A DNA stretch of 64,000 nt from Bartonella sp. MM73XJBT.G (GTDB taxonomy: Bacteria > Pseudomonadota > Alphaproteobacteria > Rhizobiales > Rhizobiaceae), in contig NZ_JAQISW010000002.1 of NCBI RefSeq assembly GCF_028618435.1, positions 1 through 64,000 of the forward strand, in the 5' to 3' direction. Below, one piece after another: positions 3,703 to 13,055 of the stretch (the first letter of the stretch is position 1; each line of letters opens with the position of its first letter). The notes under the pieces were generated by a model that did no database searches, was not told the origin of the DNA, and worked only from the letters and a program-made list of their open reading frames with translations. The position numbers and the translations under genes are program-made.

Positions 3703-4035
3703 TTACGTAAGAAATGTTGATAGCTTAGCAAGGACTTCGTTCATAATCATGGGAGGAACTGTTTCCATTTTTTTCCCCAGGCGCGCTCCAATATCAAGAG
3801 CACGTGGCTGGTCACAACGTATCACACCTGTTGTATGCAATCCTACTCCCATTAATGAGACAGCAAAACCTGCTGTTCTAGCAAAATTTCCTCCGCTTGT
3901 AATAGGTAAGACAATGGGTGTTTTCGTTACACGATTAAACGCTTCCGGTGATACAATCAGTACAGGACGCGTTCCTTTTTGCTCATAGCCCGAAGATGGA
4001 TCAAGAGATACAAGCCAAATTTCACCTCGCTTCAT
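3703..4035 (-). CDS. MazF/PemK (ChpB-like) toxin, endoribonuclease
   Basis: Type II toxin expected to cut mRNA. The fold signature is clear: KRGEIWLVSLDPSSGYEQKGTRPVLIVS at the N-terminus, then VLPITSGG and GVIRCDQPRALD. At about 110 residues it is the usual length. A GTG at 4038 is possible, but the ATG at 4035 overlaps the antitoxin stop as TGATG and gives the family start MKRGEIW. It is cotranscribed downstream of its antitoxin. It is intact, unlike several neighbouring phage genes, as expected if the pair is held by addiction. Confidence 0.85.
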   Translation of the reverse strand: MKRGEIWLVSLDPSSGYEQKGTRPVLIVSPEAFNRVTKTPIVLPITSGGNFARTAGFAVSLMGVGLHTTGVIRCDQPRALDIGARLGKKMETVPPMIMNEVLAKLSTFLT

Positions 4036-4292
4036 CACAAGAGCTCTTTACCAACAGGTTGAGTCATAAACCACTCCAAGTCCTCATCTACGAAATCATC
4101 TGACGGATTGCATTGAGCTAATAATTCATCAAGAGTATAACTAGGAAATGCCTGTGGTTTCACAATCAATTGTCCATTATCAACAGCCAAACCAACTTGC
4201 GTGTTTTCAGTAAGATGGAGAATATCAAGCAAGGCAGGTGGTATAGAAAGCATCACTGACCCTCCAACTTTACGTAATTTTGTTGTATGCAT
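4035..4292 (-). CDS. MazE/ChpS-type (AbrB fold) antitoxin
   Basis: 85 residues. The N-terminal half is a swapped-hairpin DNA-binding domain (TTKLRKVGGSVMLSIPPALLDIL, then LIVKPQ), and the acidic C-terminus (NPSDDFVDEDLEWFM) is the part that in this family wraps the toxin. It precedes and overlaps the toxin. A TTATAT-N4-ATATAA inverted repeat at 4313-4328, just upstream, lies where the complex would bind to repress its own promoter. Confidence 0.85.
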   Translation of the reverse strand: MHTTKLRKVGGSVMLSIPPALLDILHLTENTQVGLAVDNGQLIVKPQAFPSYTLDELLAQCNPSDDFVDEDLEWFMTQPVGKELL

Positions 4293-5699: not shown

Positions 5700-5891
5700 A
5701 TGAAACGAGAAGCGCTGCTTAGAGAGTTACGTAAAGAAGCCAGAAAAAGAGGTATTCATTACAGTGAGGCTCCAGATGCCGGCAAAGGATCGCATTATTT
5801 GGTAACTTTTGGAGATAAGACGACCGTTATAAAATCTGGTGAATTAACCCCACTCTATGTGAAAATAATCAAAAAACAGTTAGGGGTATGA
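5700..5891 (+). CDS. hicA: HicA toxin, mRNA interferase
   Basis: 63 residues with a small dsRBD-like fold. The key pattern is KGSHYLVTFGDKTTVI, with the catalytic His of the GSH motif at about residue 30, and the C-terminus ends VKIIKKQLGV as in many HicA proteins. GGGAGAGG precedes the ATG. The antitoxin gene follows 65 bp downstream, in the usual toxin-first order. It faces against the leftward phage genes, as expected for a self-controlled cargo gene. Confidence 0.9.
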   Translation: MKREALLRELRKEARKRGIHYSEAPDAGKGSHYLVTFGDKTTVIKSGELTPLYVKIIKKQLGV

Positions 5892-5956
5892 AGTTTTCTA
5901 AATGTTTTTATACCTCTCACAGAAGCACTTTCATAATAGCAAGGAGATTTAAAGAT

Positions 5957-6385
5957 ATGGAATATACTTATCAAGCAAAGTTTGAAACTGATCCAGATGG
6001 TGGTTTTGTTGTAACCTTTCCAGATGTACCAGAAGCAATAACAGCTGGAGAAAATAGAGCAGAGGCATTAGAGAATGCTGTTGAAGCGTTAGGATTGGCA
6101 TTACGTAGCTATCCGATGCGTGGTTTGCCTCTCCCTATACCGCAGCAGTATAAAGGTCTTATAGAGGTAACAGTAGATGCGTGGAATGCTCTTAAGCTCG
6201 CAGTGGTAGAAGCTTTTAATGAAGCTCATATTACCAAAACAGAATTAGCCAATCGTTTGGGTAAGAAAGAAACTGAAGCAAGACGCATTCTTGATCTAAA
6301 TTATCCAACGAAACTTCAAACACTAGAGCAGGCACTGACTGTTCTTGGTAAGCAAGTTGTGATTACAATCAAAAACGCTGCTTGA
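5957..6385 (+). CDS. hicB: HicB antitoxin
   Basis: 142 residues. N-terminal partial RNase-H-like HicB domain (YQAKFETDPDGGFVVTFPDVPEAITAGENRAEALENAVEAL), then a C-terminal helix-turn-helix (KTELANRLGKKETEARRILD) that would bind the hicAB promoter. The open frame begins at 5888, but AAGGAG at 5941-5946 sits 10 bp ahead of the ATG at 5957, which also starts the family pattern. It neutralises HicA and represses the operon. Confidence 0.9.
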   Translation: MEYTYQAKFETDPDGGFVVTFPDVPEAITAGENRAEALENAVEALGLALRSYPMRGLPLPIPQQYKGLIEVTVDAWNALKLAVVEAFNEAHITKTELANRLGKKETEARRILDLNYPTKLQTLEQALTVLGKQVVITIKNAA

Positions 6386-6428: not shown

Positions 6429-6707
6429 TTAAGCAACCTTTTTAATGGGGTTATCTAAATCTGGCTCGTAAGCGCGCAATAAAGACTCTATAATCGGAGG
6501 TGGTCTTAAAGTTCCAAAATGTGTAATCATTGCCAAAATTTTCAGTGCATTTGGGGTTTCGTCTTGAAGCTTAAAAATTAAAGCTTTTTCTATCGCATCC
6601 ATAGTCTCGATAAGAGTATTAAAAGCCTTATCTTCAATATCATCACGATCAGAAAACTGATACAACGCCATCCATAAATCACATAAAAAATCGATACTGG
6701 TATTCAT
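6429..6707 (-). CDS. Small phage protein of unknown function
   Basis: 92 residues from the ATG at 6707, where GGAGG lies 7 bases upstream; the longer frame to 6740 lacks a ribosome site. It appears all-helical and acidic (MNTSIDFLCDLWMALYQFSDRDDIEDKAF; LIETMDAIEKALIF). The ATG overlaps the antirepressor stop by 4 bp (ATGA), so it should be translated together with the antirepressor. Function not recognised. Confidence 0.6.
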   Translation of the reverse strand: MNTSIDFLCDLWMALYQFSDRDDIEDKAFNTLIETMDAIEKALIFKLQDETPNALKILAMITHFGTLRPPPIIESLLRAYEPDLDNPIKKVA

Positions 6708-7432
6708 TGCACACCTCCATGGATTTGTTCTCTCAAACATGCCAAACCTCTTGAAGTGATTTTTGTTGAAGGGAGTACCTTTTCTGTGCCATCAGGTCTT
6801 TGGATAGTGATAGCAGGGCAATCCATGAAGCCTTTCTTGATCTTGTCTTGATAGGGTAATAAAGGTGCCCCTGGAGCTCGACGATAGACCCAATCATGTT
6901 TACGTAGGTAATCGGTCAAATCCTTAGGTCGTACCTCTAACATCTTTGCTGCTTCAATAAGACCGAACAGCCCATCAGAACGTTTTAAGCCCTCCAAAGC
7001 TTTTGCTTTTGGAGTCAATTCAGCAATGGTGTTATCCTTCTGCTCTATTTGGCTTTGTAAGTGATTCAAAACACCAAGCAATGCTTCGGGTTTAGAGTAG
7101 TCAACTTGTGGTGTTGTTACTTGTTTCAAAAGCCGTTCACATTTGATAAAGTATTGACGTGCTTCATGCCCTTTATCATTACGCTCTATCATCGAAAGAT
7201 GTTTAGCCACGTCTAACGTAATGTGGTATTCTTTTATTTTTCCACCCCGGTAAAAATTTACCGCAGTTATAAAGTTTATATTTTCCTGAAATTTACATTC
7301 TTTAATGCGATTTTTAATCCAATTTCTAAATTCAGACTTTATTTCCAAAAACGCATGCAAATCACGAGCGTTTACCGTTTGAACAGTTTCCTGATTAATA
7401 GTTTGTTCCGATATTGGAATAAGAGTGTTCAT
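6704..7432 (-). CDS. Phage antirepressor (AntA/AntB plus KilAC domains)
   Basis: 242 residues. The N-terminal AntA/AntB domain reads VNARDLHAFLEIKSEFRNWI, then HITLDVAKHLSMIERNDKGHEARQYFI; a linker with a coiled stretch (QSQIEQKDNTIAEL) leads to a C-terminal KilAC domain (LFGLIEAAKMLEVRPKDLTDYLR and WVYRRAPGAPLLPYQDK). Antirepressors of this kind block the lysogenic repressor and push the phage towards growth. AGGAG at 7438-7442 precedes the ATG and is buried in a hairpin. A C4-like antisense RNA and a leader frame lie directly upstream. A second, broken copy is at 11769. Confidence 0.9.
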   Translation of the reverse strand: MNTLIPISEQTINQETVQTVNARDLHAFLEIKSEFRNWIKNRIKECKFQENINFITAVNFYRGGKIKEYHITLDVAKHLSMIERNDKGHEARQYFIKCERLLKQVTTPQVDYSKPEALLGVLNHLQSQIEQKDNTIAELTPKAKALEGLKRSDGLFGLIEAAKMLEVRPKDLTDYLRKHDWVYRRAPGAPLLPYQDKIKKGFMDCPAITIQRPDGTEKVLPSTKITSRGLACLREQIHGGVQ

Positions 7433-7440
7433 GTGAACTC

Positions 7441-7508
7441 CTATTGGTTAGAGGTTTTCTATTGACACTCTATGAAGAGTGCCGGGTGCTAGAAAACACG
7501 GCCAATAG
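7441..7508 (-). promoter_or_regulatory. Hairpin that masks the antirepressor ribosome site and pairs with the C4-like RNA
   Basis: On the minus strand CTATTGG (7502-7508) can pair with CCAATAG (7441-7447), GTTTTCT (7491-7497) with AGAAAAC (7454-7460), and CACTC with GAGTG in the centre. The AGGAG of the antirepressor lies at the foot of this hairpin. The 5' arm is also complementary to the upstream C4-like RNA: GTGTTTTCTAG at 7489-7499 matches CTAGAAAACAC at 7654-7664. Confidence 0.6.
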
Positions 7509-7636
7509 TCCGTCGTTATGCTTTCCCTGCGAAGGTATTTTATAGCACAACCACACCCGACAAGATCTTTATATGCTACCACATATAATGAGTCAAAATC
7601 TTTAATGTTCAGAAGATTGATTATTTCGGCAATCAA
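7448..7636 (-). CDS. Possible leader peptide frame (Icd-like position) before the antirepressor
   Basis: 62 codons from a TTG at 7636, ending 15 bp before the antirepressor ATG. No good ribosome site is seen and the start lies inside a hairpin. Translating ribosomes would cross and open the hairpin that hides the antirepressor start, as in the P1 icd-ant coupling. The peptide resembles nothing I can name, and it may be a translated leader only in the regulatory sense. Confidence 0.35.
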   Translation of the reverse strand: MIAEIINLLNIKDFDSLYVVAYKDLVGCGCAIKYLRRESITTDYWPCFLAPGTLHRVSIENL

Positions 7637-7670
7637 TCCGCTATTGGTTTAAGGTGTTTTCTAGGCACCT
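7615..7670 (-). ncRNA. C4-type antisense RNA upstream of the antirepressor
   Basis: The transcript expected from the promoter at 7677-7706 begins near 7670 with the hairpin AGGTG (7666-7670), loop CCTAGAAAA, CACCT (7652-7656), then ACCAATAG (7641-7648), then a perfect stem GATTGATT (7631-7638) / AATCAATC (7615-7622). The loop region and ACCAATAG are complementary to two blocks, GTGTTTTCTAG and CTATTGG, in the antirepressor leader at 7489-7508. Two antisense blocks, a two-hairpin RNA, and position in the same operon as ant match phage P1 c4. Ends are approximate. Confidence 0.65.
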
Positions 7671-7676
7671 GATTCG

Positions 7677-7706
7677 ACAATAGACATATTGTTGCCATAT
7701 TGTCAA
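7677..7706 (-). promoter_or_regulatory. Promoter for the C4-like RNA and antirepressor operon
   Basis: TTGACA at 7701-7706, an 18-bp spacer, TATTGT at 7677-7682 (minus strand). The -35 overlaps the stop codon of the upstream gene (7703-7705). Confidence 0.65.
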
Positions 7707-8029
7707 GCAGCTTCTGATCGTTTTTTAATCTCTCTGTTAAGCTCATCTATCAACGCTTCATAATTCAATACGCTCTTAGGCAAATGACCACCATAAACCC
7801 ATGCTTTTACTTGTGCCTTGGTACTGAAATCCGCATTCTTTGGTATGGTGTAATACTGACCGCCATCAAATTTTTCACACTCTCTCCTGCCATCTTCATA
7901 TTCGTAAAGGTTGTAAAAATACTCTGCTGCTCCATCTCCCCATGGAACATATCCAACAGCTGTTGCCACAAACTTTTTTTGCATGGGCTTTTTACGTTGT
8001 GTTAAGAAGAGATGTTGTAAAATCTGCAT
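7703..8029 (-). CDS. Phage protein of unknown function
   Basis: 108 residues from the ATG at 8029, which has AAGGA 7 bases upstream; a second ATG at 7984 gives a shorter product (MQKKFVATAVGYVPWGDG). Central aromatic stretch (AAEYFYNLYEYEDGRRECEKFDGGQYYTIP), helical C-terminus (NYEALIDELNREIKKRSEAA). Its stop codon lies within the -35 of the antirepressor promoter. No family recognised. Confidence 0.5.
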   Translation of the reverse strand: MQILQHLFLTQRKKPMQKKFVATAVGYVPWGDGAAEYFYNLYEYEDGRRECEKFDGGQYYTIPKNADFSTKAQVKAWVYGGHLPKSVLNYEALIDELNREIKKRSEAA

Positions 8030-10559: not shown

Positions 10560-11162
10560 ATGACAAAAAACATCATTGCTACATTGCAAATATTGCAATC
10601 TGAATTTGGTCTCAGCCAACAAGATCTTGCAGAGAGATTAAATGTAACCCAAGCAACCATATCAAGATGGTTGGGGAGTGAGTCAGATCCGAGAGGTTCA
10701 CATAGAGATGCAATTCTAGAACTATATAAAAGCTTAAAGGGCTATAACCAAATTACTACACTCGTTCCTATTATGGGGTATGTAGGAGCAGGACTAGAGA
10801 TTGATACAGATGTTGAGAAAATTCCAGAAGATGGGCTTGAAACAGTTGAAATACCATTTGATTTACCTTTTGAAGCATTAGGTTTCATGGTTCGTGGAGA
10901 TTCCATGTATCCTGTATATAAAGATGGTGATTTAATTGTAGTTAAACATCTGCAAACAAAGCCAGTAAGCGATTATTATGGTGATGAAGTTGTTGTTCTA
11001 ACAGAAGATAATAAGCGATTTATCAAACAAATTACTCGTTCTCTAGAGGGCATTGTACTTAAATCATGGAATGCAGACCCTATTAAAAATGCTAAGATAA
11101 AATGGGTTGGAGAAATAGTTGCAATACTACCACGTAAATCTTATCGTCCACTTATGAAATAA
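10560..11162 (+). CDS. CI-type phage repressor with LexA-like S24 peptidase domain
   Basis: 200 residues. N-terminal HTH (FGLSQQDLAERLNVTQATISRWLG), then a LexA/CI self-cleavage domain: cleavage site in GYVGAGLEID (Ala-Gly), catalytic Ser in VRGDSMYPVYKDGDLIVV, catalytic Lys in NKRFIKQIT. It should hold the lysogenic state and be inactivated through RecA. It starts at the ATG at 10560, with only a weak ribosome site. It diverges from the cro-like gene. Confidence 0.9.
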   Translation: MTKNIIATLQILQSEFGLSQQDLAERLNVTQATISRWLGSESDPRGSHRDAILELYKSLKGYNQITTLVPIMGYVGAGLEIDTDVEKIPEDGLETVEIPFDLPFEALGFMVRGDSMYPVYKDGDLIVVKHLQTKPVSDYYGDEVVVLTEDNKRFIKQITRSLEGIVLKSWNADPIKNAKIKWVGEIVAILPRKSYRPLMK

Positions 11163-11736: not shown

Positions 11737-11768
11737 CATCCATCAGTCCCATCAACATGAGGTCCGTA

Positions 11769-12512
11769 ATGGAAAAGCTTATTGCTATTCAGCACAACAC
11801 AATTAAAAACGAAACTGTTCAAACAGTAAATGCACGTGATCTGCATGCTTTTTTAGAAGTAAAAGCCCGCTTTAATGATTGGATTGTTAACCGTATTAAA
11901 GAATGTAATTTTCGAGAAAATCAAGACTTTATAAGTTTTACTAAAAATTTAGTAAAACCCCAAGGTGGGCGCACAAGCTTAGAATACTACCTCACATTAG
12001 ATATGGCTAAGCACCTTTCGATGATAGAGCGTAATGACAAAGGGCATGAAGCCAGAGAGTATTTTATAGAATGTGAACGGCGTGCAAAGCAAGCAGTAAC
12101 ACCACAAATCGATTATTCAAGTCCAAAAGCTATGATTGGATTTTTGAATTATTTGCAAGGTCAAATAGATCAAAAAGACACCATCATTGAAGATTTAACA
12201 CCAAAAGCCATGGCACTTGAAAGCTTATAACGTCATGATGGCCTTTTTGGTCTTACAGAAGCCGCGAAAATCCTCGAAATGCAACCAAAACAATTCATTC
12301 AATTCTTACAGCAAAAAGGTTGGGTTTATAGACGTGCAGCAGGTGGAAATTTACTCCCTTATCAAGACAAAATCCAAAAGCAACTTATGGATTGTCCAAC
12401 CATCACACTTCAAACCGCCAGTGGAATAGAAAAAGTTATTCCTTGCGCAAAAATCACAGCAAAAGGAATTGGTGTGCTGTCTCAAGAACTTAAAAGACAA
12501 AGCATGCATTAA
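11769..12512 (+). pseudogene. Second antirepressor copy, interrupted by an in-frame stop
   Basis: A paralogue of the gene at 6704, with the same AntA/AntB (VNARDLHAFLEVKARFNDWI) and KilAC (LFGLTEAAKILEMQPKQF, WVYRRAAGGNLLPYQDK) domains. A TAA at 12228-12230 stands where the intact copy has a Lys codon; the frame continues without a shift to 12512. The upstream part would yield a 153-residue N-terminal domain. A KilAC-only product from the internal ATG at 12279 is conceivable. The start at 11769 follows the alignment with the intact copy; an upstream ATG at 11757 is in frame. No C4-like leader precedes this copy. Confidence 0.85.
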
Positions 12513-12524
12513 GAGGCTGTCACT

Positions 12525-13055
12525 ATGGAAAAGAAATACGAACTTACTGACGAAACAATCGAAGTTGATGGACACATTACGCTTTACCGCATCCGTGCAT
12601 TGAAAGACTTTGGAGATGTAAAGGCAGGTGATCTTGGCGGCTTTATAGCAAAAGAAGACAACCTATCGCATCATGGTAATTGCTGGATTGGGGGTTATGC
12701 CAAGGTTTATGATGATGCTAAGGTTTACGAAAATGCACAAGTTTACGACAAATCTCGTATCTATGGCAAAGCAGAAGTTTTCGATGAACCATGCATTTAC
12801 GGTCATGCAGAAGTTTACGGTGATGCATATATTTGCGGTGAACCGCACGTTTTTGATAATGCAGAAGTTTATGGCAATGCACAAGTTTACGAAGAGGCAT
12901 ACATTTACGATAGGGCGCGTGTTTACGGCAATGCGCAAGTTTACGGTGATGCGCATATTTACGGTCATGCAAAAATTTACGGTGAAGCATGTGTATGTTG
13001 GGACGACTGGATTGATGGCGATAAAAGAATCTCAACTAGAAAACAAACCAGATGA
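12525..13055 (+). CDS. Hexapeptide-repeat (left-handed beta-helix-like) phage protein
   Basis: 176 residues. An N-terminal 50-residue cap (YELTDETIEVDGHITLYRIRALKDFGDVKAGDLGGFI) resembles YdcK-like phage proteins. It is followed by about 17 six-residue units of the pattern V-Y-G-x-A-x (KVYENAQVYDKSRIYGKAEV and so on to about residue 160), which predicts a left-handed beta-helix. At the DNA level the units form 18-bp imperfect repeats (gtttacggcaatgcacaa type), and for that reason several other frames are also open here. No catalytic His is obvious, so a transferase activity is doubtful. Function unknown. Confidence 0.75.
   Translation: MEKKYELTDETIEVDGHITLYRIRALKDFGDVKAGDLGGFIAKEDNLSHHGNCWIGGYAKVYDDAKVYENAQVYDKSRIYGKAEVFDEPCIYGHAEVYGDAYICGEPHVFDNAEVYGNAQVYEEAYIYDRARVYGNAQVYGDAHIYGHAKIYGEACVCWDDWIDGDKRISTRKQTR

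Follow-up and report, generated by a model that had tools for sequence, protein, structure and literature searches.

A predicted C4-type antisense switch with an sRNA-Xcc1-like core in the leader of a Bartonella antirepressor gene

The stretch of DNA analysed here (the window) comprises 64,000 nucleotides of Bartonella sp. MM73XJBT.G, whose genome of 2.23 Mb is available in 69 contigs. An antirepressor gene (ant) is located on the minus strand and a CI-like S24 repressor, a candidate target of Ant, on the plus strand; the same stretch also encodes a terminase and a single-strand DNA-binding protein. The window DNA gave no match to the phage collection and partial matches to seven Bartonella plasmids, and all relatives of ant kept by the genome scan were found in Bartonella (78/78). 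A second AntA gene on the plus strand is apparently split over two frames (11757-12230 and 12279-12512, the second part recognized by sight), and no match to the RNA family RF02221, to which the core of the ant leader is related (see below), was detected in front of it (11757-12512). A YdcK-type beta-solenoid gene without RNA leader is located at 12525-13055 (plus strand; Pfam). Additionally, a HicA/HicB-like pair was seen at 5700-6385 (plus strand; HicB just below the Pfam cut-off, HicA by sight), and a MazF/PemK-like pair with antitoxin at 3703-4292 (minus strand) by sight only. The features that are relevant for the leader are as follows.

6704-7432, minus strand: antirepressor gene ant, AntA and KilAC domains, 242 aa (PF08346, 1.8e-23; PF03374, 7.9e-21; PHROG anti-repressor Ant)
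7441-7447, minus strand: block b2 (CCAATAG), the last AG of which opens the AGGAG ribosome site (7438-7442); perfect in 162/170 copies
7454-7461, minus strand: block a2 (TAGAAAAC), target near the ribosome site; supported by pairing of a within its own region
7472-7562, minus strand: antisense core, sRNA-Xcc1-like, with stem P1, P2 with internal loop, P3 and joining strand (RF02221)
7489-7499, minus strand: antisense block a (GTGTTTTCTAG), in the joining strand, between P3 and the 3′ side of stem P1 (sequence and a words)
7502-7508, minus strand: antisense block b (CTATTGG), in the P3 loop (word pairing and helix counts)
7615-7638, minus strand: hairpin 2, directly after b1, weak and A/T-rich in Bartonella; 69.8% of cells paired, 7/8 pairs changed on both sides, in a gapped part of the alignment
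7641-7647, minus strand: block b1 (CCAATAG), the target of the antisense loop on the upstream side; 97.6% of b1:b cells paired
7652-7670, minus strand: hairpin 1 (AGGTG/CACCT) with block a1 (7654-7664) in loop and 3′ arm; helix 94.6% paired in 41 sequences, a1:a 11 bp
7677-7706, minus strand: promoter-like TTGACA-18-TATTGT (TTGACA 7706-7701, TATTGT 7682-7677), 10/12 matches; transcript start expected at about 7670
10560-11162, plus strand: CI-like S24 repressor (PF00717, HTH_3; phrog_4 transcriptional repressor)

The promoter, the two hairpins and the complementary blocks described in the first-pass annotation were recovered on the minus strand when the sequence was checked. CTAGAAAACAC (7664-7654) pairs at 11 of 11 positions with GTGTTTTCTAG (7499-7489), and CCAATAG (7647-7641) at 7 of 7 positions with CTATTGG (7508-7502), the A at 7648 being unpaired. 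The arm carrying a and b has alternative partners at the ribosome site of ant, namely CCAATAG (7447-7441) and TAGAAAAC (7461-7454). The duplex energy, which had been proposed as a check, was −25.1 kcal/mol for this single arm with the 5′ block, and only 1 of 2000 shuffled targets (mean −11.5) was as low; for the ribosome-site block it was −18.1 kcal/mol, a value reached by 46 of 2000 shuffled targets. Three promoter-like sites were counted on both strands of the 401-bp region (shuffles: mean 1.2, sd 1.4). Because hairpin 2 is weak and the terminator scan of the window leader called none, early termination of transcription is here regarded as no more than a possibility. Folded alone, the core formed stems P1, P2 and P3, block b lying in the loop of P3 and block a in the joining strand; in the minimum-energy fold of the whole leader the arm was fully paired with a1/b1, stems P1 and P3 were broken, and the ribosome site was free of the arm.

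The first-pass annotation had named the Rfam C4 model as a check for its proposal of a C4 antisense RNA. The C4 model (RF01695) gave no match in the window at gathering scores, no match in 7380-7760 even at E≤10, and none in the source genome or in the control genomes, and c4-2 (RF02944) and c4-a1b1 were likewise without match in 7380-7760 at E≤10. The names c4-2 and c4-a1b1 reportedly come from a 2017 paper on 224 candidate RNAs. When 16 related RF02221 loci were compared with C4, c4-a1b1 and isrK at E≤1, no match was obtained either. C4, c4-2, c4-a1b1 and isrK were thus discarded as the family of the element since none of the models matched. Instead, the core (7472-7562) matched RF02221 with 46.6 bits (E 2.5e-7), which is below the gathering score of 53, and it shares with sRNA-Xcc1 both the fold and the conserved core; judged by its sequence, it is a relative of sRNA-Xcc1. 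The source genome contains 14 RF02221 matches at E≤1 with scores from 34.3 to 54 bits, one of which (54.0) exceeds gathering. In genome surveys whose filters miss weak matches, 32 of 61 Bartonella genomes had a copy above the cut-off and 41 of 61 had one at E≤0.001, and 58 of 398 Pseudomonadota genomes, the source genome included, had a match at E≤0.001. Stems P1, P2 and P3 were 92.6-100% paired in 41 sequences.

The architecture of the leader corresponds to that of the C4 system of phages P1 and P7 (RF01695; targets c4-a1b1, RF03163). The phage P1 record annotates the order a1, b1, C4, a2, b2 and icd, and the window presents the same order of a1 and b1, antisense RNA, a2 and b2, and ribosome site. 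In phage P1, a1 and a2 pair with nucleotides 51-57 of C4, i.e. the strand between P3 and stem P1, and b1 and b2 with the P3 loop; in both systems the P3 loop holds b, the joining strand holds a, and b2 continues into the ribosome site. The distances are similar: from a1 to the RNA 88 nt in P1 and 102 nt in the window, for the RNA itself 77 and 91 nt, and from the RNA end to the ATG 51 and 40 nt. Hairpin 2 of the window sits where phage P1 has a hairpin with a T run. The system of P1 controls an antirepressor, and in the window the AntA/KilAC gene, whose control would be of the same kind, comes next. In contrast, the window element belongs to a different RNA family, has a shorter stem P1 and a conserved internal loop in P2 (AAUACAA ... 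GGGGAA, RF02221 consensus), and is followed directly by ant without icd. The P1 C4 sequence itself scored 68.8 bits with the Rfam C4 model. C4, c4-a1b1 and c4-2 are placed in one Rfam clan and RF02221 in none; because of this, and because no C4 model matched, the likeness to phage P1 C4 is taken as one of architecture and topology, and common descent is not supported by the sequence models.

Since the order of the parts and the placement of a and b are as in phage P1, the middle RNA (7472-7562) is interpreted as the antisense RNA and the flanking blocks as its targets. The annotation had assigned the antisense role to the 5′ hairpin; the comparison with phage P1 reverses these roles, a1/b1 being the target, and the 5′ hairpin was dropped as antisense RNA. 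C4-type control of an antirepressor is supported as to block order, topology, the AntA/KilAC gene and the covarying blocks, but not as to the distribution of roles or the RNA family. An adjoining leader frame, also part of that proposal, exists as a 62-aa frame (7448-7636); however, stem P1 and the b loop are separated by 50 to 55 nt depending on the copy, so that the frame is not conserved, and it was rejected as an equivalent of icd. Open frames of at least 50 codons occurred in 66 of 170 loci, a count that says little either way.

Two further phage systems resemble the element. The immunity of phage P4 (seqA, CI, seqC) likewise involves a processed small RNA between two complementary targets on its own transcript, as described in the accessible part of PMC4825925; it acts on transcription termination of replication genes and not on an antirepressor. 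IsrK of the Salmonella prophage Gifsy-1 (RF01394) comprises, according to the same partial source (PMC4825925), a leader RNA at the 5′ end and a processed RNA farther downstream, ahead of anrP; unlike it, the 16 related RF02221 loci had no isrK match at E≤1.

When the 14 copies of the source genome were placed side by side, most of them showed one word upstream (b1), its reverse complement in the P3 loop (b), and the word once more where the next gene has its ribosome site (b2), and a second word (a) repeated this pattern in the same three regions. A profile search of the loci yielded 349 matches, none of them from non-Bartonella loci, of which 319 were full-length and 174 distinct; 4 of the 174 could not be parsed and 170 were analysed. 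These comprise 85 with a copy in named Bartonella records and the 14 of the source genome, the rest being from other genomes of the genus or viral contigs, and together they contain 34 distinct words. Pairing was scored with exact pairs and fixed windows, so that weaker pairings are missed. Block b was perfectly complementary (7/7) to the upstream region of its own copy in 154 of 170 cases and to that of copies with another word in 37 of 6365 sampled pairs (0.6%); for the downstream region with the ribosome site the values were 162 of 170 and 14 of 6365 (0.2%). Block a (runs of 8 or 9 nt) matched its own upstream region in 127 and its own downstream region in 148 of 170 copies, compared with 152/5764 and 110/5764, respectively, for copies with another a word. 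With anchoring at fixed positions, b1 matched in 154/170 copies and b2 in 154 of the 167 in which it could be placed, and complete triples were found in 149/170 copies and for 32/34 words.

The relatedness of the copies was controlled in two ways. In 41 sequences picked by overall identity only, blind to the words, the whole structure was 97.2% paired, and when one partner was slid by 1 to 3 columns this fell to 33-42%. On a tree from which the word regions had been excluded, 50 pairs of copies were phylogenetically independent and differed in word; both members were perfect at b1 in 38, at b2 in 40, and at both sites in 32. These comparative tests show the blocks changing together and thereby remove the doubt over them: the complementarity goes far beyond chance once relatives are compared, and the conservation in related copies that the annotation had looked for is strong.

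The exceptions often look like 5′-half swaps between copies. In L003 (source genome), L054, L088, L111 and L145 the upstream b1 carries the word of another copy, as if the 5′ half had recombined. In L014 (source genome, C33) b1:b is intact and b2 has no match, and a different kind of gene follows. Several leader copies of the source genome directly precede YdcK-type beta-solenoid genes (L002 by Pfam; L004, L010, L012 and L013 by sight). As for the predicted duplex energies among the 14 copies of the source genome, the ribosome-site block that the arm binds best is that of the same copy in 13, and the a1/b1 that it binds best is that of the same copy in 10, one of them tied. At the ribosome site it is the window copy that deviates, its arm preferring the block of L010 (−16.8) to its own (−15.6). 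A b word is common to L006 and L009, to L010 and L011, and to L001, L003 and L014. L007 and the window core (7472-7562) have the same b word CTATTGG within one genome; cross-binding via this common word was considered and dropped, as the predicted pairing of the arm with the L007 ribosome site is weak (−9.8) and L010 is the stronger partner.

Outside the genus, 30 RF02221 loci of other Pseudomonadota were analysed. A two-block match of at least 12 bp to the own upstream region was present in 28 of them (non-self 93/870), and 19 had such a match to the downstream one (non-self 34/870), with a permutation p of 5e-5 in both directions; the remaining 11 of these 30 loci had no 12-bp two-block match downstream. 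Moreover, the core pattern was found in at least 120 stretches of viral contigs, 80 of which were analysed and gave 76 distinct loci (1 too short, duplicates merged). Matches of at least 13 bp were present with the own upstream region in 54/76 (non-self 259/5700) and with the own downstream region in 43/76 (non-self 88/5700; permutation p = 0.0002 for both). The proteins encoded downstream of the viral loci (n=70) were assigned to P22_AR_C (17), KilA-N (13), Bro-N (10), AntA (9), P22_AR_N (7), Rha (7) and ORF6N (7), counts that may overlap between families. In the upstream control (n=70), AntA, ORF6N and P22_AR_N occurred once each among the best 25 of 47 families. For these counts 70 of 71 downstream and 70 of 72 upstream ORFs were scanned, overlapping duplicates being left out; the downstream ORF was the longest in the stretch and the upstream control the nearest of at least 100 aa where present, so that the two choices differ slightly. 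Judged by these assignments, the next gene at viral loci is mostly of antirepressor type. For the genome loci (n=28, one ORF per locus for 28 of the 30 loci) Bro-N (5), Rha (3), SymE (2), HTH_38 (2), P22_AR_N (1), KilA-N (1) and Rap1a (1) were found, and many of these 28 proteins had no known family.

Individual loci were additionally inspected by reading. A Pseudomonas plasmid carries the b word at all three places together with matching a blocks before a BRO gene, and in Escherichia phage HEMP4 the b word stands at all three places before an AntA-like reading frame. In Aggregatibacter phage S1249 the upstream copy of the word is clear and the copy at the ribosome site is not; the next listed gene is annotated as 'possible bacteriophage antirepressor'. 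This phage (L412) has tandem RF02221 matches at 1502-1588 and 1736-1819 (68.6 and 47.3 bits, the second below gathering) before the antirepressor gene. When a 301-nt HEMP4 leader was used as query, 441 of the 5,426 complete E. coli genomes gave a match of 60 to 100% identity, and in 351 of these it extended over 80% or more of the query. The eight E. coli matches listed were all annotated as antirepressor (Ant or AntA/AntB family). At L207 a CRISPR array of regular repeats (24-1193) lies a few hundred bases upstream of an RF02221 locus.

A comparison with the Brt RNAs of Bartonella henselae was made in genome G461, which matches at 100% a prophage contig that we take to be that of B. henselae and which is hence presumably B. 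henselae itself. The accessible text of PMC5387305 describes nine Brt RNAs with lengths of 194-203 nt that precede XRE-type trp genes within 277 kb of the genome, judges them genus-specific by BLAST and proposes a riboswitch. In agreement with that description, as far as the source is available (PMC5387305), G461 contains nine XRE genes over the Pfam cut-off which span 276.9 kb, two of them alike and one with a stop; a tenth, sub-threshold XRE match is also inside this span. None of the 11 RF02221 matches of G461 was located at the nine Brt loci, and a Brt profile gave 14 matches at E≤1e-5, all in Brt loci and none at the window element. The idea that the window element is a Brt RNA proper was dropped once the nine Brt loci had been located; it has neither an XRE-type trp gene directly downstream nor a detectable sequence match to Brt. 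Both are multi-copy leader RNAs in mobile regions of Bartonella before regulator genes, with a similar stem, P3 loop and joining strand, but the downstream gene is of XRE type for Brt and encodes AntA/KilAC in the window. Among 8 distinct Brt units, a and b were both complementary to upstream blocks in 4 (four different word sets, 15 bp or more), b only in 1, and neither in 3. At this threshold 1 of 56 non-self comparisons matched, between two units with a common word, and at 12 bp or more the contrast was weak (self 5/8, non-self 12/56). Downstream of the Brt core no strong a2/b2 match was found. The sequences are suggestive of the Brt RNAs being a partial version of the antisense design.

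Taken together, we assign a probability of about 85% to a C4-type, phage P1-like antisense switch before ant, in which the core acts on ant via its release and the masking of the ribosome site. One transcript starting at about 7670 would contain a1/b1, the folded antisense RNA (7472-7562), a2/b2 at the ribosome site, and ant. Release of the folded core as a small RNA (about 90 nt) is probable, C4 of phage P1 being released likewise; processing by RNase P at the 5′ end of stem P1 is among the marks of C4 RNAs. By analogy with phage P1, its P3 loop (b) and joining strand (a) would pair with a2/b2, cover AGGAG and stop translation of ant, and the prophage would stay silent as a result; we infer that this repression can be relieved. 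When it pairs with a1/b1, either in cis or on a different nascent transcript, the antisense RNA may be titrated or transcription may end early. Because the words differ between copies, each antisense RNA is expected to act chiefly on the gene of its own copy or on an incoming phage that carries an identical word. Words are also described as differing between P1 and P7 in the part of the literature that was available.

The weakest of the competing explanations, which we regard as very improbable, holds that the repeats stem from a mobile leader that was recently duplicated and gene-converted, and do not reflect pairing. The many copies per genome (14 here) and the visible 5′-half swaps would fit it. 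Against it, the words differ and nevertheless stay complementary at three places, 5 of the 7 b1:b pairs have changed on both sides where the slid controls remained only 33-42% paired, 32 of the 50 independent pairs are complete at both sites, and the covariation holds in the 41 sequences chosen by overall identity and blind to the words. It is also improbable, though somewhat less so, that RNAs of the sRNA-Xcc1 type mainly act in trans on many host or virulence mRNAs and that their place before ant is a by-product of phage carriage. They are so described for Xanthomonas, with control by HrpG/HrpX, and target predictions exist for Xylella, as far as the accessible texts go; this explanation is opposed by the strong downstream-gene bias and by the finding that, in Bartonella as well as in other Pseudomonadota and viral loci, the RNAs are complementary to their own adjoining gene more often than to that of other loci.

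A more serious competitor, though still an unlikely one, is a cis-only attenuator similar to a riboswitch, in which the arm alternates between a1/b1 and a2/b2 in one transcript without a separate antisense RNA: pairing with a1/b1 would free the ribosome site (ON), pairing with a2/b2 would mask it (OFF), and the balance would be shifted by a ligand or a stalled ribosome. In its favour, the leader folds at minimum energy with the arm paired to a1/b1; as this fold breaks stems P1 and P3, the core may fail to be released here, in line with a cis switch. The threefold occurrence of the words would also suit mutually exclusive helices, and a riboswitch or heme-responsive attenuator has been proposed for the Brt RNAs in the available portions of Tu 2016 (PMC5387305) and a 2021 review. 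The Brt RNAs were moreover observed at about 200 nt and not as a 90-nt product in the accessible part of that work (Tu 2016, PMC5387305), which was counted against release of the core. However, the core keeps a conserved three-helix fold (92.6-100% paired) that would be needless for a simple arm. Furthermore, sRNA-Xcc1 was cloned and end-mapped in Xanthomonas as an RNA of 88 nt, according to the accessible text of PMC2996969, and since this is about the length of the core it supports release. Finally, C4 of phage P1 has the same architecture and acts, in the literature available to us, as a separate RNA. The released antisense RNA is therefore retained as the favoured reading.

sRNA-Xcc1 is known as a trans-acting sRNA and is not tied to C4 in Rfam. 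It has been described upstream of symE in integron cassettes of Xanthomonas (PMC12444791, available in part), and C4, isrK and sRNA-Xcc1 lie near each other in one Xylella genome, where the accessible part of the report draws no link between them (PMC12189769). A literature search, partly limited to incomplete texts, found no link between sRNA-Xcc1 and C4; Chen 2011 and the 2017 survey of 224 candidate RNAs were beyond its reach. Priority for the link is thus not certain, and either of these papers might hold part of it.

With these findings sRNA-Xcc1, which recent papers treat, in their accessible parts, as a plant-virulence or vesicle-borne sRNA, would gain a likely function and mechanism and be joined to the classic C4 immunity logic of phage P1. 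Going by sequence comparison, the design with three copies of a word, and with different words, recurs under RF02221, in viral contigs as well as in Pseudomonadota outside Bartonella. Sequence matching one coliphage copy of the leader was found in 441/5,426 E. coli genomes, so that the mechanism is testable in laboratory E. coli, and the proposed Brt 'riboswitch' becomes testable as an antisense switch. Tentatively, and at somewhat less than even odds, RF02221 RNAs may form a widespread, gene-independent barcode system, in which a hypervariable word occurs three times per locus and each phage copy silences, apart from incoming relatives with the same word, no gene other than its own (an antirepressor, a SymE-type toxin or another gene). 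Polylysogenic Bartonella would then carry many immunity groups side by side, new groups would arise via concerted word change or half-swaps, and the badA-affecting Brt RNAs would be a domesticated branch in which the antisense core persists and the target at the ribosome site has been lost. The finding suggests how polylysogens may keep many antirepressors under separate control.
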